Assembly (NCBI GenBank): GCA_002384765.1
Contig: DGBM01000283.1
Location: 1-8,408, forward strand
Source: Demequinaceae bacterium UBA4004
Lineage (GTDB): Bacteria > Actinomycetota > Actinomycetes > Actinomycetales > Demequinaceae
DNA length: 8,408 nucleotides
Reading direction: 5' to 3'
The translations under genes and the position numbers were made by a program. Under the pieces are notes generated by a model, which made no database searches, was not told where the DNA came from, and saw only the letters and a list, made by a program, of their open reading frames with translations. Shown here one piece after another: positions 1 through 8,408 of the stretch. Position 1 is the stretch's first letter. Each line of letters opens with the position of its first letter.

Positions 1-42
1 TGGCTCCGACGGGCGTCGATCCCGTGACCTCACGATTTTCAG
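1..42 (-). other. Attachment site: tRNA-Phe 3' fragment (positions 32-73)
   Basis: On the minus strand these 42 bases fit the end of a tRNA exactly: anticodon loop CTGAAAA (GAA anticodon, Phe), 3' stem strand TCGTG, variable loop AGGTC, T-stem ACGGG/CCCGT around loop ATCGACG, 3' acceptor strand CGGAGCC and discriminator A at base 1. A CCA end is not encoded within the window. The loop departs from the usual T-loop by starting with A. No D-arm or 5' acceptor strand lies beyond base 42, so this is not a whole tRNA. Integrases of this family commonly target the stretch from anticodon loop to 3' end, and the match stops precisely at the loop. Just past it the sequence CACAA can still pair 4 of 5 with TCGTG, which would preserve the inverted core-type sites around the crossover. 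The orientation fits the orphan copy of the repeat. Confidence 0.75.
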
Positions 43-209
43 TTGTGTGACACGGGTTTGTGGGTGCCAGTTGGTGCTCGATCACCGCGTGATTCCGCGG
101 ATGTCGTGCTCGTTGGTGATGGCTGGCTCTCGATGGTTTCAACCGAGTTCCCGGCCCGGGACCGGCCCGGTTCCCAATTCTGAATCAGAATTACTTCTAC
201 TCTGGCTTT
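43..209. other. Non-coding spacer between attachment site and first gene
   Basis: I see no credible gene here; an overlapping open frame from base 47 has no ribosome site and is out of frame with the gene it overlaps. The stretch holds a 9-bp direct repeat CCGGCCCGG at 151-159 and 162-170, the short palindrome GTGTGACAC at 45-53, and the stronger palindrome described separately at 176-192. Arm-type integrase sites are expected near an attachment site, but I cannot identify them without the integrase's own preferences. Confidence 0.5.
176..203 (+). promoter_or_regulatory. Perfect 17-nt palindrome and possible -10 box ahead of the nuclease-like gene
   Basis: AATTCTGA (176-183) and TCAGAATT (185-192) are perfect inverted complements around one base. 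TACTCT at 198-203 fits the actinobacterial TANNNT -10 pattern. A start point about seven bases further falls on the GTG at 210, so the message may be leaderless, which agrees with the lack of a Shine-Dalgarno sequence. No good -35 is visible; its expected place lies inside the palindrome, so a bound dimer would be expected to block or recruit polymerase. The AT-rich palindrome contrasts with the G+C-rich surroundings. The binding protein is unknown. Confidence 0.45.
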
Positions 210-1025
210 GTGAGTATGACGCCATCAGACGCCGCCGACTTCATTCGCAACGAGACTCCGTACGTCGTAGAGACCATCAACGAGTTCATGGCCGCCACGT
301 TCACGACCCGTGGCGGGCGGCTCGGGAGCGGCATGGGCCTTCTCTTGGAAGGACTCTGGGGCTATCACATGAGTAATGCCATCGCCGGGCACGGAATCGA
401 GATCGCCTGGATGGCGGACGATCAATACAACGACTACGCCTGCCTCGACATCGACTCAGATTGGGACCCGGTGACTGGCGAGGGCGAGCTCTTTCGTATC
501 GAGGCTAAGTCGATGAACTTGGGTGCGGACGAAAGCAAAGCGCACTTCGCGGAGTTGGTCGGCGGTATTGACCCCAACGACCTCCTGCTTGTAATCACGT
601 GGCGGTGGGAACCGGTGGGGCCTCGCGTTCATCCCAGGATTGTCGACGTATTCATCGAGCGCGCGCGTCCCATCGCTGAGCTCCGCGATCAGTTGCATCT
701 CGCCAGGGGCGGTAGCTTCGTCGATCCGTTCAACTGCCCCGATGGATGCAACCCTCAGCTTTGTCAGCACGCGGGCGAACCGTTGAACGCCGCCGGCAAG
801 CGCGAGAGGTTGAGTGGCCCGGAGTCCACTCGTCCGTCTCAAAGAGTGAGTTTTGCAGCGAACTTCGGTGGATTGTTCCGCATGATCGGGGTTCGAGAAG
901 CGTCAACCCGACGTCTGCTCGACCAAATCCGGGAATCTAGTCGCGAAGCCGATGACTATGTCGCCTTCGTCAATCGCGCACGCGGAAGACTCGAGGGTGG
1001 AGGTCGCGCGGGTCGGCTCGACTAG
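210..1025 (+). CDS. Putative PD-(D/E)XK restriction endonuclease-like protein
   Basis: This 271-aa protein is likely the DNA-cutting partner of the methyltransferase and specificity genes that converge on it. It shows a PD-(D/E)XK-like arrangement: a helix with Glu47 (LLEGLWGY), acidic strand residues around 78-84 (ACLDIDSD), then a strand carrying E98-A-K100. A hydrophobic strand, DLLLVITWRW, follows at about 124-133. A C176-x3-C-x4-C-x-H187 cluster could bind zinc. The C-terminus (about 225-265) is charged and helical. I see no helicase or ATPase motifs, so it is not an HsdR. The start is either GTG 210, which would be leaderless, or ATG 216; neither has a ribosome site. Its stop shares the bases CTAG with the stop of the opposite gene. 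The family is not recognised by name; the nuclease call rests on motif spacing and context, and it could also be an inactive or regulatory relative. Confidence 0.6.
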   Translation: MSMTPSDAADFIRNETPYVVETINEFMAATFTTRGGRLGSGMGLLLEGLWGYHMSNAIAGHGIEIAWMADDQYNDYACLDIDSDWDPVTGEGELFRIEAKSMNLGADESKAHFAELVGGIDPNDLLLVITWRWEPVGPRVHPRIVDVFIERARPIAELRDQLHLARGGSFVDPFNCPDGCNPQLCQHAGEPLNAAGKRERLSGPESTRPSQRVSFAANFGGLFRMIGVREASTRRLLDQIRESSREADDYVAFVNRARGRLEGGGRAGRLD

Positions 1026-1561
1026 AGAATCGACAGCTCCAACCGATCCAACTGCTCGAGAAGGAGCTGGGCTTCACTTCGCACTTCGAGTGCGCGCCGG
1101 GCGATCGTGTCTCTGCGAGATACTTCTCGCTCATCATCGGGCCACTCGAGCTCCAGATTGAGCAGTTCCCGAGCGTTGATTCGTGGCAGATTCGCCCCAC
1201 CGACGAGTCGGGCGACCTGGTCCGTGAATCCCTCGCTCCGAAGGACTGCCGCGAGGTAGTGCGCCGTGCCCAGGGCTACGGGCCGAAGCACGATGATGTC
1301 CAGGCTGCAGAAGCCTGAGCGCTCAGCTACGCAAACCTTGCGAAGCTGAGGGCGCAATTTTCCATACAGCACGTCGCCGGCTGCAAAACTGCCTTTCGCG
1401 GACTTGATCTCCTCAAGCTCCACTCGGCTAGGAGAGACGCGCCCCGTCTTCTGCGAAATGTGCTCGAGAAGAACGTAGTCGCCTTCGAGCAGCTTCTCGG
1501 GCGGAACGGAGCCCTTGACCTGCTCCACGAGAGACGCGAGGGGCACCTTCGTCGCGGTCAC
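1022..1561 (-). CDS. hsdS: Half-size type I specificity (HsdS-like) subunit
   Basis: This 179-aa protein probably recognises the DNA target for the methyltransferase. It resembles one target-recognition half of HsdS: an N-terminal segment with YVLLEHISQKTGRV (about 31-44), the typical strand-turn GDVLYGKLRPQLRKV (about 62-76), SLDIIVLRP (85-93), a GGANLPRINARELLNLEL stretch near 121-138, and a C-terminal helix rich in Arg, Leu and Glu (about 146-179) that would be the conserved spacer helix. Normal HsdS proteins have two such halves and about 400 residues. Single-half S proteins are known to work as dimers reading symmetric interrupted sites, which I infer here. Start GTG 1561 overlaps the methyltransferase stop in GTGA and is preceded by AAGGAG, so the two are translationally coupled. 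The 3' end meets the nuclease-like gene tail to tail. Confidence 0.8.
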   Translation of the reverse strand: MTATKVPLASLVEQVKGSVPPEKLLEGDYVLLEHISQKTGRVSPSRVELEEIKSAKGSFAAGDVLYGKLRPQLRKVCVAERSGFCSLDIIVLRPVALGTAHYLAAVLRSEGFTDQVARLVGGANLPRINARELLNLELEWPDDEREVSRRDTIARRALEVRSEAQLLLEQLDRLELSIL

Positions 1562-2847
1562 GCCAACTCCTTCTTGATTGCGTCGATTCCTCCGCCGATG
1601 CGGGCGAGTGTGGCGTCAATGTCGGTCAATACCTGAACGCTGTCGTGACTCTCGCGATCAGCGCCTTCGGTCGCCGATGCGACGTATCGTGAGGGATTTA
1701 GGTTGTATCCAGATCCGATCAAATCGCCTAGCGACACGGTCACATTCGCTACGGACGCTGAAGTGTTGCCCGCGAGCAAATCGATCGCCGCAGGGAGATC
1801 GCTTCCACCGACCGGCACACGTCGTTGGTCAAGACTGAAACCGTCTCGATCGATTCGAATCATCCGGATTTTGTCATCAGGCATGCGCCGGTGCCACAAC
1901 AGAATCGCCGTCTTAACGTCGGTATATGGTCGGAACACGCCCGACGGCAGTTCGATCACTGCCTCTAGATCGTGAGACTTCACGAGAGCTTCACGGATGG
2001 CCCGAGCAGCTGCAGTTCCGCCGGTGAGGACGCTGGTTGGCACGACTACGGCGGCGCGGCCCTGAGGTCGGAGCCGATTCATCATCGCCTCGAGAAACAA
2101 CAGCTCGGTCTTGCGGGTCTTCACACCGTAGAGACTTGCGACTTCATCGGATACGCTCCCGGCGAAGGGCGGGTTCGCCAGGATTACATCTGCATCCGGC
2201 GCGACTGGGAGCAACCCGTCGGCGTTGTCTATCTGCGCGTCGCTGATGCCGTGAAATCGAAGATTCGCCGTCGCAATTCGAGCGACAGTTCGGTCGATTT
2301 CCGTCCCACGGATTGTTCCCGATTGTCCTCGTTCTTCACGGTAGGTGCCTGCCGCGACGAGGAAACCGCCGGTGCCGGCCGCGGGATCGACGACGCACTC
2401 GCCAGCGCCGGGGCGAGCGATGTCGACCATAAAGCCAATGATGTGCCGCGGCGTCCGAAACTGACCGAACTGCCCAGCAGTCGCCAGTCGCGCAAGCACG
2501 TGCTCATAGATATCGCCGAGAACATCCACCCCCGCTTGGTCTTCCACAAGCGGATCGAGAAGTTCCATCGCCCGTTGCGCTGAAATGGTGGAACGCCAAA
2601 ACTCTCCCGACTCGATCTCTGAGCCCGCATCAATGCCGTAGTCACGCCGAACTCGCGTCAACGCTTTTGCAAGCCCAACCGAGTCTCCTGATTGAGCAGC
2701 GTCCAGGCAGATGCTCCACTGGGCGTCGTCGTTTGCCGCCATCAGGAGTGTGCCGATCAGGTCGGTAACTACGATCGGGTTGGTCACGCCACTCGACCAG
2801 ATAGCGTCCCAGACTCTGTCGACGGCCTGCCTAAAGTCCGGTGCCAT
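1558..2847 (-). CDS. hsdM: N6-adenine DNA methyltransferase, HsdM-like
   Basis: This 429-aa enzyme should transfer a methyl group from S-adenosylmethionine to adenine at the site chosen by the partner S protein, protecting host or element DNA. Numbering from the upstream GTG at 2850, it has an N-terminal helical region (1-120), motif X-like GQFRTPRHI at 129-137, AdoMet motif I DPAAGTGGF at 155-163, and catalytic motif IV NPPF at 226-229, typical of gamma-class HsdM and type IIG enzymes. The C-terminus includes GYNLNPSRY near 381-389. It is somewhat shorter than classical HsdM proteins of about 500 residues. I chose ATG 2847 because GAGGAG lies seven bases upstream; GTG 2850 would be only four away. 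A possible -10 (TATGTT, minus strand, 2883-2888) lacks a convincing -35. The downstream hsdS-like gene overlaps by four bases. Confidence 0.92.
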   Translation of the reverse strand: MAPDFRQAVDRVWDAIWSSGVTNPIVVTDLIGTLLMAANDDAQWSICLDAAQSGDSVGLAKALTRVRRDYGIDAGSEIESGEFWRSTISAQRAMELLDPLVEDQAGVDVLGDIYEHVLARLATAGQFGQFRTPRHIIGFMVDIARPGAGECVVDPAAGTGGFLVAAGTYREERGQSGTIRGTEIDRTVARIATANLRFHGISDAQIDNADGLLPVAPDADVILANPPFAGSVSDEVASLYGVKTRKTELLFLEAMMNRLRPQGRAAVVVPTSVLTGGTAAARAIREALVKSHDLEAVIELPSGVFRPYTDVKTAILLWHRRMPDDKIRMIRIDRDGFSLDQRRVPVGGSDLPAAIDLLAGNTSASVANVTVSLGDLIGSGYNLNPSRYVASATEGADRESHDSVQVLTDIDATLARIGGGIDAIKKELA

Positions 2848-2957
2848 CACGGCGCTCCTCTTCGATCAAGATCCACTTAGCCAACATAGATGCGTCGTCC
2901 GACAATTGCGTTACTGCGCGGGCTGGCGCGAGCGTGGGCCGGAAGCGAACACCGGAT

Positions 2958-3040
2958 GGGAGGGCTCTCGTGTGGCGAGGAACGCCCGGACCGCAGCGAA
3001 GCGAGGACCGGACGTACCGCAGTCGCACGAGAGCCCTCCC
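2958..3040. repeat. Nested inverted repeat with internal direct repeats
   Basis: The 15-base arm GGGAGGGCTCTCGTG (2958-2972) is perfectly complementary to 3026-3040. Inside it, ACGCCCGG (2982-2989) pairs with CCGGACGT (3008-3015) at 7 of 8 positions. The inner arms are themselves framed by direct repeats: GCGAGGA at 2975-2981 and 3001-3007, and ACCGCAG at 2990-2996 and 3016-3022. The result is two 22-base units with identical ends and inverted middles. A folded RNA would have a long basal stem, a near-symmetric internal loop (9 and 10 bases), an upper stem and an 18-base apical loop. No T-tract follows, so an ordinary intrinsic terminator is unlikely. Alternatives are a non-coding RNA, an origin or protein-binding site, or a miniature repeat. 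Confidence 0.75.
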
Positions 3041-3043
3041 GCT

Positions 3044-3061
3044 GCCGGCCGTCAGGCCGGC
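3044..3061. repeat. Short hairpin GCCGGCC-GTCA-GGCCGGC
   Basis: A perfect 7-bp G+C stem with a four-base loop, starting four bases after the larger inverted repeat. There is no run of T on the plus strand after it. It may be part of the same structured element. Confidence 0.6.
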
Positions 3062-3133
3062 CTTGAACGAGTAAAGAAAGTTCTCACAGCCTTGCCTCGG
3101 AGATGTCTGAGGAGGCGGGTAGAACGGATTACG

Positions 3134-3140
3134 GAGGAGG
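3134..3140 (+). promoter_or_regulatory. Strong ribosome binding site fixing the start at 3146
   Basis: GAGGAGG lies five bases before ATG 3146. The reading frame is open for 435 bases further upstream, but no other in-frame start has a comparable site. This one decides the start and makes the 114-aa product the credible protein. Confidence 0.75.
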
Positions 3141-3145
3141 CGACA

Positions 3146-3490
3146 ATGCTCGGATTCGCAGCGACGGTGCACCATCTGCTGCCCTTCGCGGAAGTCGCAG
3201 ATCTCCACCATGTTCGGCAGATGCATTATGGCGGTGGTGTGGACTACGCGAGGCGGTTCCGCGGTGAGGTCGTGATCCCGCGCTTCTTCACCAGAGGTGC
3301 TGGTGTGCTTGATCTTGTGGAGGCTGCCCGCGCAAAGCGCGTGATGCTCGTTCATGACGGGGGATACCCGTACATCGTCGTCGGGTTTGCGTCCGAGTTC
3401 CGCGGTGCTTTCGTCAACGCCACAGTTGAGTTTCCGTTCGACGTAGGCGATGCCGATCTGCTGTTGCTCGAAGCATGGGATCAGAGCTGA
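3146..3490 (+). CDS. Hypothetical protein, 114 aa
   Basis: I do not recognise this family. The protein is compact and mixed in structure. It begins with a hydrophobic, histidine-containing stretch (LGFAATVHHLLPFAEVADLH, 2-21). It continues with VVIPRFF near 42-48, a helix rich in Ala and Leu (about 50-65), a strand KRVMLVHDGG (about 64-73), IVVGFASEF (77-85), and an acidic leucine-rich end (DADLLLLEAW, 102-111). It has no signal peptide, membrane span or cysteine motif. The ATG has an excellent ribosome site. The gene lies alone between the structured spacer and a convergent gene, so it is probably transcribed singly as element cargo. It could be an accessory factor of the restriction module or an unrelated defence or stress gene; nothing in the sequence decides. 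Confidence 0.7.
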   Translation: MLGFAATVHHLLPFAEVADLHHVRQMHYGGGVDYARRFRGEVVIPRFFTRGAGVLDLVEAARAKRVMLVHDGGYPYIVVGFASEFRGAFVNATVEFPFDVGDADLLLLEAWDQS

Positions 3491-3492
3491 GT

Positions 3493-3539
3493 ACGTCGCA
3501 GCTCCGCTCGAGCGCGTGACGGATACTCTCCCGCGACGT
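3493..3539. terminator. Possible bidirectional stem-loop between convergent genes
   Basis: ACGTCGC (3493-3499) and GCGACGT (3533-3539) are inverted complements, and the spacer contains the perfect palindrome CGCTCGAGCG (3505-3514). The place, between two convergent stops, suits a shared terminator. There is no T-tract, and the outer stem encloses 33 bases, so the call is weak. Confidence 0.25.
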
Positions 3540-3544
3540 GGCCC

Positions 3545-4045
3545 TCAGTCTTGACGCGGGCGTCTGGCCTTCGCGTCGTAGTTGCCCGAGTCGAGCAACT
3601 CTTGCGCTCGTGCACCAACCACTCCACCGAGGTCAACGAGGTCAAGGATCGATACTGAGGGGAACGCGACAAGCAGCGCGTTGATGTCGGGTCTGGGAGA
3701 GAGCAGGGACGCGACGGCATCTACTGTTCCCTCCGAGTACCGGCGAATGAATCCCTGAGAGCTGGTGTCCTGCGCTCGCGCGAGATCAGAGATGATCGGG
3801 CGCGGATTGTGAAACTTGTGCGCGTAGGCGGACAGCAGCGCGCGTAGGTCGGTCGCAGCGCGCGTTGTCTTGTGAGCAGCGCCAATCGCGAGTCGGAGCT
3901 CATCCTGCACGTCGCCGGGCTTGTCTGGCCACTTGATGCGCTCAACGCGTCTCGCGTTCTCCGAGGCTCGTTTCGCGAAGAGGCGTGCGAGGTCGATGAT
4001 CACCGTCGGGACGGTGCCCCACGCAATCTCCAGTTCGTCGCTCAC
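3545..4045 (-). CDS. Hypothetical protein, possible repressor of the element operon, 166 aa
   Basis: This protein is not recognised by family. From GTG 4045 (AGGAG six bases upstream) it has 166 residues and is mostly helical. Residues 10-36 are an amphipathic, basic region. Residues 84-108 (IISDLARAQ through RRYSEGTV) resemble a helix-turn-helix, with a turn near DTSSQG. The C-terminal part, about 120-150, is hydrophobic (INALLVAFPSVSILDLVDLG). A longer frame starting at 4120 lacks a ribosome site. It is transcribed away from the backbone operon, the same position that the GntR-type repressor KorSA takes relative to pra in some AICEs. It does not look like GntR, so a repressor role is inferred from position and a weak HTH resemblance only. 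Confidence 0.65.
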   Translation of the reverse strand: MSDELEIAWGTVPTVIIDLARLFAKRASENARRVERIKWPDKPGDVQDELRLAIGAAHKTTRAATDLRALLSAYAHKFHNPRPIISDLARAQDTSSQGFIRRYSEGTVDAVASLLSPRPDINALLVAFPSVSILDLVDLGGVVGARAQELLDSGNYDAKARRPRQD

Positions 4046-4113
4046 GATGGTCTCCTGCGTCGAGATTACAGCGGCCGCTAAGAGTCGGCTGGAATACGAA
4101 GGTCGGCAACGTC

Positions 4114-4164
4114 TGCTCAAGGACTAAACAAATGTTGACAAAGTGAGCAAAGGTGATGCAGACT
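4114..4164 (+). promoter_or_regulatory. Candidate promoter and operator of the backbone operon
   Basis: TTGACA at 4135-4140 is a perfect -35. At 18 bases spacing CAGACT (4159-4164) is a poor -10, so another factor may be needed. The -35 lies between TGCTCA (4114-4119) and TGAGCA (4144-4149), perfect six-base inverted complements 24 bases apart, and ACAAA occurs on both sides of TGTTG. This would suit a repressor that covers the promoter. The -10-like TGTAAT on the minus strand (4065-4070) may serve the divergent gene. Confidence 0.45.
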
Positions 4165-4198
4165 GGCGCCAACGATTTCCAATCGAGAGGAAACAGAA

Positions 4199-4597
4199 AT
4201 GGCTATCCAGTCCGCAATTCCCGTCAACTTCGACGCATTTTTCCCCCGGGGCGCATTCGTCGTCGGCGAGGTCGAGCCGATCGTCAAGTGGTCCGACGAC
4301 GGCCAGCGTCAGGGGCAGGACCTCGACAAGGTTTCAGGACATCCGCTCTGGCAGGTCCGGGTCATCGATGCCGACCCTGATGCCAAGAAAGGTCAGGGCG
4401 AGGTGACGGTGAAGATCGCCAGCATCTCCGAGCCGGCGCTGCCGCCCGAGATGAACGGCCTGCCGTTCCGGCCCACAGTCTTCGAGGGGCTCACCGTGAC
4501 GCCCTATGTAAAGGAGGGTCAGGGCCGTCCTCGTGTCGCCTTCTCCCTGCGGGCTCGCGAGATGAAGCCTGCGCCGAAAGCCCGCGGGACCGAGTGA
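4199..4597 (+). CDS. pra: Pra-like activator of element replication, integration and excision
   Basis: This 132-aa protein has the conserved look of the small protein that precedes the FtsK-like gene in many AICEs, often named plasmid replication, integration and excision activator after Pra of pSAM2. Visible family features are IPVNFDAFFPRGAFVVGEVEP at the N-terminus, LWQVRVIDADP near 50-60, a beta-rich VTVKIAS segment, LPFRPTVFEGLTVTPYV around 87-104 and a basic C-terminus. If the name is right, it turns on excision and replication of the element. The AGAGGA ribosome site is correctly spaced before ATG 4199. It is the first gene of the operon, downstream of the TTGACA region, and its stop overlaps the next start as TGATG. 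The name is recalled from family resemblance; a biochemical role in this protein is not shown by sequence. Confidence 0.7.
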   Translation: MAIQSAIPVNFDAFFPRGAFVVGEVEPIVKWSDDGQRQGQDLDKVSGHPLWQVRVIDADPDAKKGQGEVTVKIASISEPALPPEMNGLPFRPTVFEGLTVTPYVKEGQGRPRVAFSLRAREMKPAPKARGTE

Positions 4598-6006
4598 TGG
4601 GTCACACCGTGCCCCGCGGCCTCCGCACCTGGGGCGACGAGTTCGGAATGTTCGCCAGGCGCTGGTGGTGGACGCTCCCAATCATCGGCTTGATGACGTG
4701 GCTTCCTCCAGTGCCAGCGGTGCACACTGCGTTCAATTGGGTGGTCCTCGGTTTCGTAGTGTTGGTCGCAATCTGGGCAATCTCGACCGCTCGTCGGATG
4801 CCACGTCGACCGGAGGAAAAGTGGAAGCGCGACGTAGGTCGCAACATCCACGGAAGCTGGGCGGCAGTCGCGACTCGCCTCGGCCTTGGGGTTCCCGACC
4901 ACACCACACGCGGCACGGTATCCCCGGCTATCAGCTATCCCGTGTGGGACGAGTGGACATGCATTCTGCGCGTCTCTCTCCCGCAGGGACTCGGGCGTGA
5001 GCATCTTCAGGCGCAGACCGGACTACTGGCTCAGGCGTTTGGCGCTCGGCGGGCAGTAGTCGAGGGATCTCACATCAGTTCGCTGCTGCTGCGGTTCGAG
5101 TACTCAGACGTGCTGGAGGAGCCGTTCAGGCTCGAGAACGACATGCCGTGGGATGGCAAGACCGTCCCCATGGGCATCTTCGCCTCGGGTGAGATTTGGC
5201 GTCTGCGGCTCGGTCCACACACGCTCGTGGCTGGCTCCTCCGGTAGTGGGAAAGCGTCGCTCGTGTGGGGGCTCTTGCTCGGTCTTGCCGAGCCGATCCA
5301 CACCGGTCTCATCGAAGTCTGGGGTGTCGATCGCAAGGGAGGCATGGAGCTCGCGCTCGGGCGTCAACTACTCACCCGGTTCGCCGACGACGCCCGGCGC
5401 TCGGTGATCCTGCTCGAGGAGGCCGTTGTTGCGATGCAGGCGCGTGCCCGACAGCTCGCTGGCAAGACGCGGCAGCACGTGGCGACGGAAGACAGCCCGA
5501 CGATCGTCGTCCTTATCGACGAACTCGCAGCTCTGACTGCCTATGAGACCGACCGTGATCTACTCCGGCGCGCGAACGCAGCAATCGCGACGCTCGCCTC
5601 ACAGGGAAGGGCAGTCGGTTTCGTGGTCTTCGCCTGTCTACAAGACCCGCGCAAGGAAACGCTCCCCGCCCGTGGCCTCTTCACGCAGACGGTCGGCTTG
5701 CGCCTCCGCGACCGGATGGAAACCGCGATGGTGCTCGGAGACGGAGCTGTCGTGGCCGGCGCGCTTTGCCACGAAATATTGCCCGAAACCCCCGGCGTGG
5801 CTTACGTGCTGCCGGAGGACGGTAGGCCGCCTGAACGCGTGAGGGCCGGGCTCGTCACCGACGAGATGATCCACGCCACGGCGTCAAAGTTTGCGGCACC
5901 GCGACAGATACCGATTGTCGTCCCCGAATCTCCACCCGACGTCCCTCGTCAGCCCCGCACGAGGCGTGAACCCCGTACATCCACACGAAAGGAAGATGCA
6001 TCATGA
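4597..6006 (+). CDS. FtsK/SpoIIIE-type conjugative DNA translocase (TraSA/TraB-like)
   Basis: This 469-aa membrane-anchored ATPase probably forms the hexameric pump that moves double-stranded element DNA between mycelial or neighbouring cells. In numbering from the GTG at 4594, two hydrophobic segments (about 24-40 and 45-64) anchor it. A Walker A motif GSSGSGKA is at 214-221, Walker B IVVLIDELA at 304-312, and a sensor-like region ATLASQGRAVGFVVFACLQ at 332-350 typical of FtsK motors. The residue after the Walker A lysine is Ala rather than Ser or Thr; from memory, related AICE translocases often have Gly there. The C-terminal tail (about 440-470) is Pro and Arg rich and may contact DNA. The start is ATG 4597, overlapping the previous stop by one base; GTG 4594 is equally open. 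Its own stop overlaps the lipoprotein start in ATGA. Confidence 0.9.
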   Translation: MGHTVPRGLRTWGDEFGMFARRWWWTLPIIGLMTWLPPVPAVHTAFNWVVLGFVVLVAIWAISTARRMPRRPEEKWKRDVGRNIHGSWAAVATRLGLGVPDHTTRGTVSPAISYPVWDEWTCILRVSLPQGLGREHLQAQTGLLAQAFGARRAVVEGSHISSLLLRFEYSDVLEEPFRLENDMPWDGKTVPMGIFASGEIWRLRLGPHTLVAGSSGSGKASLVWGLLLGLAEPIHTGLIEVWGVDRKGGMELALGRQLLTRFADDARRSVILLEEAVVAMQARARQLAGKTRQHVATEDSPTIVVLIDELAALTAYETDRDLLRRANAAIATLASQGRAVGFVVFACLQDPRKETLPARGLFTQTVGLRLRDRMETAMVLGDGAVVAGALCHEILPETPGVAYVLPEDGRPPERVRAGLVTDEMIHATASKFAAPRQIPIVVPESPPDVPRQPRTRREPRTSTRKEDAS

Positions 6007-6425
6007 AGAACTCGAACCCGGCTGCACTTGCAGGCATCGTCGCTATCGCCGCGGTGCTTGCCGGCTGTGGCGCGACACACTCCGCTGATCCCACCGAGTC
6101 AACTTCCGTCGAGACCCGCCCGGTTCGCGCCTTCGAGGCGGCTCCCTGCAACCTCGGAGAGCAATTCGACCGTGACGCGATGGTCAAGCGAGCCCGCTAC
6201 GACAGCCCGGCCGCTAGCGAATACGACCTCGAGCACTATGGCCCGATGATCGCGAACAACTCGTGCTCCGACGCGCAGATCATCAAGTGGCAGGAACTTC
6301 GGCGTGAGCTTGGCGAGAGCGACACGATCTGCCGCGTCGTCTACTACGACGACTACTTCTCCGCGGTGACCTACCCGATCGGCTGCGCCGTGCCCGTCAT
6401 GGTGGTGACGGATGCGTCTCGATGA
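6003..6425 (+). CDS. Small lipoprotein of unknown function
   Basis: The 140-aa product begins with two charges, a hydrophobic stretch (about 7-19) and a lipobox LAGC with the cysteine near residue 22. It should therefore be exported, lipid-modified and held on the outer face of the membrane. After a Thr/Ser/Glu-rich linker, the mature part has four further cysteines (near residues 49, 88, 109 and 127), enough for two disulfides, and many acidic and tyrosine residues (VVYYDDYFSAVTY). I do not recognise the family. ATG 6003 overlaps the translocase stop, with AAAGGAAG upstream, and its 3' end overlaps the rep gene by 14 bases. The position between transfer and replication genes suggests a part in mating-pair contact or in excluding a second copy, but this is inference. 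Confidence 0.8.
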   Translation: MKNSNPAALAGIVAIAAVLAGCGATHSADPTESTSVETRPVRAFEAAPCNLGEQFDRDAMVKRARYDSPAASEYDLEHYGPMIANNSCSDAQIIKWQELRRELGESDTICRVVYYDDYFSAVTYPIGCAVPVMVVTDASR

Positions 6426-7776
6426 ATCGGTCGCTCGGCGGCTCCGTAGCCCTGACTTCGACCGTTGGATGCGTGGCGTCTCTGCCACGGGTCACTGCCG
6501 CAACCCCGTACGCCTTGTGGGTTCGTCTACGACTCTTCACGAGCCCTCGGGTGAGGTCCTGTCCGAATATGCCTCCGCGAACGAGGCAGATGGCATCACC
6601 TTCACCCGCTGCGGCAATCGCCGCGCAATCCGCTGCGCGTCGTGCAGTCACGAGTACAAGGGCGACACGTGGCACATGATCATGGCCGGCGCCGCGGGCG
6701 GGATGAAGGAGGTGCCTGAAGCGGTCGCGACCCACCCGATGGTGTTCTTGACGCTGACAGCGCCCTCCTTCGGCGCGGTGCACACGACCGCCACTGATCA
6801 TCGTGACGGAACGTGTGAGCACGGGATGCCGCTGGGTTGTCGCTGCACCCATGCCGAGGATGATTCGCAACGCGGCGACGCCGTCTGCCCTGACTGCTAC
6901 GACTACGTCGGACAGGTGGTTTGGCAGTACCACGCGCCCGAGCTCTGGCGCCGGTTCACCATTCGTCTACGTCGCGAGCTGGCGCGTACCCTCGGCGTCA
7001 CTCAGCGGGCCGCGTCGCGAGTTGTGCGAGTGCAGTTCGCGAAGGTTGCGGAGTTTCAGCGCAGGGGAGTGGTGCACTTCCACGCCATCATTCGTCTCGA
7101 CGGTGTCGACCCGGTCGATCCGTTCCCGCCGGCTCCAGCATCCGTCACGACGGCGCACCTCATCGAGGCGATCGGCGCCGCGGTGAAGAAGACCAACGTC
7201 GTTGCCGCGCCGGCCCCCGGCGATGACAGTTCGCGAGAACTCCGGTGGGGCACGCAATTCGATGCCCGCGTGATCGTTCGCCACGACGGACTTGACGGCT
7301 CTCTCTCCGATCGTGCCGTCGCTGCGTACATCGCCAAGTACGCCACGAAAGCTACCGAGGATCTCGACTCAGCGAGCGGTGGTCGCGCTCATATCCAGCG
7401 CGTCAAGCAGACCGTGCGGCATCTCGCAAAGTTTGTTGATCCAGAAGGGCCATACGCGCAGCTGCACAAGTGGGACGGGATGCTCGGATTCCGCGGTCAC
7501 TTCTCGACAAAGTCGCGCCGCTACTCCGTGACTCTGGGTGCGCTCAGGGGTGCTCGACGCGCATGGCGTCTCAGCGCACTTCTCGACAAGGTCAGGCCGA
7601 CGGAAGACGTCACTCCGGATGAAGTGCTGGTCATCGGCTCGTGGTCCTACGCCGGGATGGGGTGGCTCACGGACGGCGACAAAGTTCTCGCGACCGAGGC
7701 AGCTAACGCCGCGCGCGAGTGGCGCAACGACCGAGCACGTGCCCGATACCAAACCCACGAAAGGAGAACGCCATGA
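6412..7776 (+). CDS. repSA: RepSA-type rolling-circle replication initiator
   Basis: The 454-aa protein matches the size and layout of RepSA of pSAM2, the HUH nuclease that nicks the double-strand origin and starts rolling-circle replication of the excised element. A cysteine-rich segment with CGNRRAIRCASC (67-78) and a second cluster (C135, C143, C145, C159, C162) look metal-binding. Motif I is FLTLTAPSFG at 112-121, the HUH pair is VVHFHAIIRLD at 220-230 (H222, H224), and the tyrosine motif is AAYIAKYATK at 304-313 with Y306 the likely catalytic residue. All key residues are present. ATG 6412 is preceded by a GGTGG-like site inside the lipoprotein gene, so translation is probably coupled. 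Its stop overlaps the excisionase start. Confidence 0.88.
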   Translation: MRLDESVARRLRSPDFDRWMRGVSATGHCRNPVRLVGSSTTLHEPSGEVLSEYASANEADGITFTRCGNRRAIRCASCSHEYKGDTWHMIMAGAAGGMKEVPEAVATHPMVFLTLTAPSFGAVHTTATDHRDGTCEHGMPLGCRCTHAEDDSQRGDAVCPDCYDYVGQVVWQYHAPELWRRFTIRLRRELARTLGVTQRAASRVVRVQFAKVAEFQRRGVVHFHAIIRLDGVDPVDPFPPAPASVTTAHLIEAIGAAVKKTNVVAAPAPGDDSSRELRWGTQFDARVIVRHDGLDGSLSDRAVAAYIAKYATKATEDLDSASGGRAHIQRVKQTVRHLAKFVDPEGPYAQLHKWDGMLGFRGHFSTKSRRYSVTLGALRGARRAWRLSALLDKVRPTEDVTPDEVLVIGSWSYAGMGWLTDGDKVLATEAANAAREWRNDRARARYQTHERRTP

Positions 7777-8012
7777 CCATAGGAGCCACCATCGTCGCCG
7801 AATCCGTGGCAACGCCCGAGGTAGATGCCACGGGATACCTGACGCGCAGAGAGGCCGCCGCTCGATGCCGTGTGCCGCAGTCGACCTTTGACTCTCTGCG
7901 CCGGCAGAACAGGTTTCCGTTTCCGGATGCACACATGGGCAAGCACATGCTGTGGCGTTCGTCGACGGTTGACGACTTCCTCGAGGCCGGTGGTACTCGT
8001 GGTGACGGGTGA
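7773..8012 (+). CDS. xis: Excisionase-like helix-turn-helix protein
   Basis: This 79-aa protein has the AlpA/MerR-like winged helix found in excisionases and plasmid HTH proteins: YLTRREAAARCRVP (22-35) forms the helix-turn-helix, STFDSLRRQNRFPFPD (37-52) the recognition helix and turn, and KHMLWRSSTVDDFLEAG (57-73) the wing and last helix. In this position, just before the integrase, it should bend DNA at the attachment ends and direct the integrase to excise. ATG 7773 has a strong AAAGGAG site and overlaps the rep stop in ATGA. A longer frame from 7719 would lie inside rep and lacks such a site. Residues 1-20 form a poorly conserved-looking tail. Confidence 0.85.
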   Translation: MTIGATIVAESVATPEVDATGYLTRREAAARCRVPQSTFDSLRRQNRFPFPDAHMGKHMLWRSSTVDDFLEAGGTRGDG

Positions 8013-8408
8013 CGGCGTGGGGCGCATCGATCCGAAGACGCGTCGCGCGCTACCCGCCGGCATCCGATACCGCGAAGACCGCAAGAAGTACCAAGTGCGC
8101 GTGTGGGCGGTGGGGATGAACGGCGAGTGGCGGGAGCGCAGCTTCTACGTCGCAACGCTCTCGGAGGCAAAGAAGCTCCGAGCCGAGACTCAGGCGCAAC
8201 GCTTCCCAGATGGCAGCCTGACCTTGATCGGGTGGCACGCGCGCTACTGGGCTGTCATCGCCGACAGCATCCGCCCGTCTACTTCCCGCGCCTACGAGCG
8301 GGCATGGCGGCTGAGGGTGAAGCCATGGCTGGGTCACGTCAAGCTCGAGAAGCTGACCGCCGGTGAGATCGAAGCGGCGATGGCGGAATGGTCGGGAAGT
8401 AGCTCGAC
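8002..8408 (+). CDS. int: Tyrosine integrase, N-terminal part (continues past the window)
   Basis: About 135 residues are visible and the frame is open to the last base. From about residue 10 (RIDPKTRRALPAGIRYR) the protein has the beta-rich arm-DNA-binding domain (KKYQVRVWA, then RSFYVATLSEAKKLRAE). It then has the SAM-like core-binding domain (LTLIGWHARYWAVIAD, SIRPSTSRAYERAW, KLEKLTAGEIEAAMAEW). The catalytic half with the Arg-His-Arg-Tyr residues is outside, so activity cannot be judged. It should recombine the tRNA-Phe attachment site. The start is uncertain: GTG at 7999, 8002 and 8017 are all in frame and none has a strong ribosome site. I took 8002, which overlaps the xis stop by 11 bases and implies coupling. 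Confidence 0.85.
   Translation, partial: MTGDGVGRIDPKTRRALPAGIRYREDRKKYQVRVWAVGMNGEWRERSFYVATLSEAKKLRAETQAQRFPDGSLTLIGWHARYWAVIADSIRPSTSRAYERAWRLRVKPWLGHVKLEKLTAGEIEAAMAEWSGSSS

Follow-up and report, generated by a model that had tools for sequence, protein, structure and literature searches.

A probable Type IIH-like restriction-modification set in a Demequinaceae bacterium, with apparent exchange of the methylase-specificity pair around a conserved endonuclease

Restriction-modification (R-M) systems in which a methyltransferase subunit (M), a half specificity subunit (S) and an endonuclease (R) are separate polypeptides follow a published plan, known as Type IIH or "Type 1 1/2" and exemplified by AhdI (PMC4081073, PMC3874165; all papers cited here are quoted from excerpts). 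The Type IIH label is now seldom used (PMC4081073), and a 2025 review instead illustrates it with BcgI and Sau42I (PMC12602166). M.AhdI is an M2S2 enzyme in which each S corresponds to about half a classical specificity subunit (PMC2878638). We describe here three genes of Demequinaceae bacterium UBA4004, found in a window of 8,408 nucleotides (the whole stretch analysed; contig DGBM01000283.1, positions 1 to 8,408), which likely constitute a new member of this plan. A first-pass annotation of the same DNA had already delimited the three corresponding open reading frames (ORFs), all of which were confirmed:

210 to 1025, forward strand: R, a predicted 271-aa PD-(D/E)XK restriction endonuclease (PADLOC, conservation, AlphaFold2 model)
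1022 to 1561, reverse strand: S, a 179-aa specificity subunit with a single target recognition domain (TRD), or "half" specificity subunit (PADLOC, HsdS profile match, AlphaFold2 model)
1558 to 2850, reverse strand: M, a 430-aa gamma-class N6-adenine DNA methyltransferase subunit (Pfam, PADLOC)

The M and S genes, both on the reverse strand, overlap by 4 bp and probably share one operon, the start codon of M being GTG at 2850 or, as in the first-pass annotation, ATG at 2847. R lies outside this operon, since it converges tail to tail with S-M, the stop codons of R and S overlapping by 4 bp, a point absent from the first-pass annotation. Three features of Type IIH, a separate gamma-class M, a single-TRD S and an unfused Type II-like R, were found in the window, and AhdI has the same layout, with a Type IIP-like endonuclease (PMC4081073, PMC3874165). 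The PshAI and BsaBI methylases are also alike, in descriptions that cover M and S only (PMC4081073, PMC3874165). By contrast with AhdI, no C gene was recognised by Pfam among ten ORFs of the window, and the genes converge in the order R> <S <M. The first-pass annotation had proposed a distinct new layout, a proposal rejected here because the organisation is already published (PMC4081073, PMC3874165) and because PADLOC lists the trio under Type II as REase_II (PDLC03408), MTase_II (PDLC03218) and Specificity_II (PDLC03590); the R of the window belongs to the first of these, whereas its M and S match Type I models best. As in the Type IIB enzymes BcgI and BsaXI, the methylase is partnered by a Type I-like S, and the S model indeed resembles S.BsaXI (8w0p_C, E 3e-7); unlike in these enzymes, however, the nuclease is a separate protein and S has one TRD. 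A Type IIB/IIG assignment (BcgI) was rejected, R and M being separate, unfused genes on opposite strands. With regard to Type I, none of the window ORFs that were examined proved to be an HsdR translocase, a result that holds for the DNA within the window's ends and is in line with the absence of HsdR beside M-S noted in the first-pass annotation, and a crude test for four DEAH-like strings found none in 24 ORFs of at least 600 aa in 36 relative loci. Nor does the window hold the two-TRD S of Type I systems, its 179-aa S having a single TRD. In layout, the set stands midway between Type II and Type I restriction.

R is, by motif and model, a PD-(D/E)XK restriction endonuclease. It matches the PADLOC model REase_II (PDLC03408) with E 1e-75, and its AlphaFold2 model (predicted local distance difference test, pLDDT, 86.3) has a PD-(D/E)XK nuclease fold whose closest counterparts in the PDB are SwaI, EcoRV and HincII. 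R shares with these three the fold and the active-site order E..D..E-x-K, which is the order of EcoRV itself; all three are stand-alone dimeric enzymes. R also bears a CCCH cluster (C176/C180/C185/H187) and a TRGGR loop, the comparison with the three enzymes having been made on fold and active-site order. Residues E47, D75, E98 and K100 are almost invariant in the aligned relatives. The core E98-A-K100 and the CCCH cluster, both pointed out in the first-pass annotation, proved to be conserved: E98, K100, C176, C180 and C185 are kept in all 147 aligned R sequences, and H187 in 143. These 147 comprise 120 listed database matches, one of them the window R itself, together with 27 loci; a smaller sequence set (A1) comprised the window protein and 39 of the 120 listed matches, out of 718 found in all. 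The CCCH cluster would probably form a structural zinc knuckle that aids site reading. No family was assigned to R by Pfam, NCBIfam or PHROGs (the last searched with six stretches, one of which was an arbitrary piece of the relative locus L013 and not a gene), and a PDB sequence search gave nothing convincing (best E 1.2 with the single sequence, 0.68 as a profile). R is named "hypothetical protein" in every name shown among the 120 matches listed.

The coupling of an HsdM-like methylase to a half S, also put forward in the first-pass annotation, was borne out. M contains the motifs DPAAGTGGF and NPPF, the latter present in all 28 compared M proteins, window M among them, and it matches N6_Mtase in Pfam (E 1.7e-47) and MTase_I in PADLOC (PDLC03021, E 4.7e-83). 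Among the 25 PADLOC matches of S listed, out of 47, the best are specificity subunits, with Specificity_I at 6e-23 and Specificity_II at 5e-17, and a 24-row profile of the S family matches two stretches in each of the HsdS proteins 3okg and 5ybb, with E about 1e-36. The AlphaFold2 model of S (pLDDT 90.3) consists of one TRD and one long C-terminal helix, its best PDB match being the S subunit of PacII (7vru_C, E 4e-11, TMq 0.78). S is half of an HsdS.

The association of R with the M-S pair extends well beyond this genome. A survey by two peptide patterns, which gave a non-random sample, found the order and orientation R> <S <M in 27 of 32 genome loci, that is, in all 27 with enough sequence to judge; in L029 and L031, S is present and is followed by the contig end, and L006, L017 and L032 end too early to judge. 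The loci span ten phyla, according to labels available for 25 of the 27. The family is found in many phyla yet is sparse: outside the source genome, R was absent from the 395 further Actinomycetota genomes (396 searched), and it was absent from 72,556 plasmid records. The first-pass annotation had named two outcomes that would speak against its proposal, a fold unrelated to nucleases and a lack of conservation of the 271-aa gene beside M-S; neither was observed, since a nuclease fold is predicted for R and R is conserved beside M-S. Four viral contigs (L033-L036) score the same as L013 and were counted with it as one lineage. In L013 and L036 the trio (1050-3320 in both) has a gene for a phage tail protein nearby (Phage-tail_3, 1.8e-12), so that prophages probably carry it as well. 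In a Solirubrobacteraceae metagenome-assembled genome (L031:4441-5796), the R gene is split by a transposase-bearing insertion (DDE_Tnp_1_4, 4e-34), and the S gene beside it stays open to the contig end.

Within this conserved set, the R cutter appears to have been retained while its M-S partner pair was exchanged. Mean identity between the proteins of the window and L002 (Acidobacteria), on the one hand, and those of the other loci, on the other, was 47.5% for R, 29.1% for S and 25.6% for M, to be compared with 48.3, 36.4 and 45.0%, respectively, among the others. This comparison covered 27 of the 36 loci: L006, L017 and L029 were left out for S or M missing at contig ends, and L031 (broken), L032 (fragment) and L033-L036 (same score as L013) were left out by hand, while the M of L009 (331 aa), which looks shortened, was kept. 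In the R tree, built like the others without the near copies L021 and L024, the window and L002 are sisters (96/93) inside the larger set; a further sequence set (A3) comprised 23 of the 27, those left out being L003, L015, L021 and L024. In the M tree, which carries a branch-length and composition warning, the window and L002 stand apart on long branches. PADLOC, applied to M and S from five of the 27 loci and to R from two of these and one phage, points in the same direction: M and S of the window and of L002 match Type I models best (PDLC03021 and PDLC03069), and in the four other sampled relatives the best model for M is MTase_II (PDLC03218). The split is less sharp for S, Specificity_II (PDLC03590) being the best model in four of the five sampled relatives. 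In L013, the three Type II models match R, M and S with E 2.6e-163 (PDLC03408), 5e-242 (PDLC03218) and 2.6e-78 (PDLC03590). The S of L031 is close to that of the window (E 4e-31), which makes it, by S alone, a third locus of this kind, its M lying beyond the contig. These data are most simply explained if a single ancestor of the window/L002 branch swapped its M-S pair and kept R. As an observation on annotation, PADLOC labels in 210-2850 are Type II for R and Type I for M and S, and automatic rules might call this set an incomplete Type I system.

A relative of R (31.6% identity) was found in three Synechococcus phage records (QB2, S-M1 and WH25-B) out of 50,697, and it sits after psbA and psbD in the regions read, those of QB2 and S-M1. 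The QB2 protein (L043:4016-4714; PDLC03408 match, E 2e-27) keeps E47, D75, E98 and K100 and has lost both the CCCH cluster and the TRGGR loop. As these two elements are lost while the catalytic residues are kept, comparison of the sequences suggests that they serve site reading in the R-M enzymes. The two genes that follow the relative in QB2 gave no methylase match in Pfam, and the phage protein is possibly a free-standing homing nuclease. Membership of the F-CphI family was rejected for it, F-CphI being a cyanophage homing enzyme that is reported to use an Endo VII motif.

From a mechanistic point of view, the set would work as a Type IIH-like system as follows. By analogy with the M2S2 assembly of M.AhdI, two half S subunits may pair head to head and read a symmetric interrupted site, and the resulting M2S2 enzyme would methylate one adenine per half-site. 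R would act as a dimer, read the same site itself and cut unmethylated DNA with Mg2+ and without ATP. The first-pass annotation had instead suggested that the nuclease joins the M-S complex, in which case R would lack full specificity of its own and dock on M-S, giving an ATP-independent three-subunit enzyme resembling an unfused BcgI. Such docking would be in line with R never occurring without S and M in the 27 judgeable genome loci, and with BcgI-type RM+S enzymes, in which cleavage and methylation both need the two subunits, so that nuclease and M-S can function as a single complex (PMC3874165). We nevertheless consider it unlikely, and we regard as equally doubtful a three-polypeptide, ATP-independent enzyme in which one M-S-targeted nuclease serves M-S pairs of either lineage, despite their great divergence. 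Indeed, R is about equally conserved over two M lineages that are only about 26% identical and offer no obvious shared docking surface, which mildly disfavours a required docking on M-S. If the exchange is true, the action of R is independent of any particular M, which fits an R that reads DNA alone. This falls short of proof, since S remains clearly similar in the two groups, where it may provide a face for docking, and since the unusual branch holds only two complete loci. The stand-alone dimeric nature of the enzymes with the nearest folds argues in the same direction, as does the cyanophage relative, which keeps its catalytic residues and is followed, in QB2, by two genes without a methylase match.

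Two further explanations concern the integrity of the set. The shortest S of the 28 compared is that of the window (179 aa, the 27 relatives having 218-275 aa); about 30 N-terminal residues common to most of them are missing from it, and the R gene of the relative L031 is broken, so that decay, leaving S or R inactive, was considered. It seems quite improbable: L002, of the same M lineage, also lacks this stretch, and the short N-terminus is therefore better seen as a lineage trait, while the three frames are open, the active-site and methylase motifs are intact, and the 179-aa S is modelled as a complete TRD and helix with pLDDT 90. It could also be supposed, given the Type I models that M and S match best, that HsdR was lost from a Type I system, leaving M-S as an orphan methylase and R as a chance neighbour. 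This remnant scenario, with a convergent trio present in 27 of 27 judgeable loci and ten phyla, was rejected and is given next to no weight. The Type IIH-like reading is thus the one retained.

The remainder of the window reads as part of a mobile element, with genes for transfer, replication and integration:

4594 to 8406: genes of a pSAM2-like integrative element (FtsK/TraB-like, RepSA, helix-turn-helix, integrase start)

These comprise an FtsK/TraB-like protein (E 1.3e-10, Pfam), a RepSA replication initiator (E 2.6e-147, Pfam), a weak helix-turn-helix protein where the excisionase usually sits, and the start of an integrase (Phage_int_SAM_3, 1.5e-6) truncated by the window end. At the other end, positions 1-43 match the 3' part of a tRNA-Phe gene from an actinobacterium (G013) at 91% identity, with some match in 32 of 149 genomes; six matching loci were checked, with tRNA-Phe in four, tRNA-Met in one and no tRNA found in one, and Rfam found no tRNA in positions 1-300 of the window. 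Positions 1-43 are probably one attachment end of the element. Lying next to this end, the R-M set is therefore probably cargo of an actinobacterial integrative element inserted in tRNA-Phe. A perfect 15-bp inverted repeat upstream of M (2958-2972/3026-3040, 53 bp spacer) is perhaps a replication, transfer or regulatory site. Four ORFs, 3545-4120 (reverse strand) and 3146-3490, 4199-4597 and 6003-6425 (forward strand), matched no family above the Pfam cut-off, the last having, as judged by eye, a lipoprotein-like start.

If the exchange of partners is true, two M lineages about 26% identical would both have to shield the one site that the conserved R reads, and the family would then offer a natural test of whether the specificity of the endonuclease is its own. 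Concrete candidates for the residues with which R reads this site are those of the TRGGR loop and of the CCCH cluster, both absent from a cyanophage relative.
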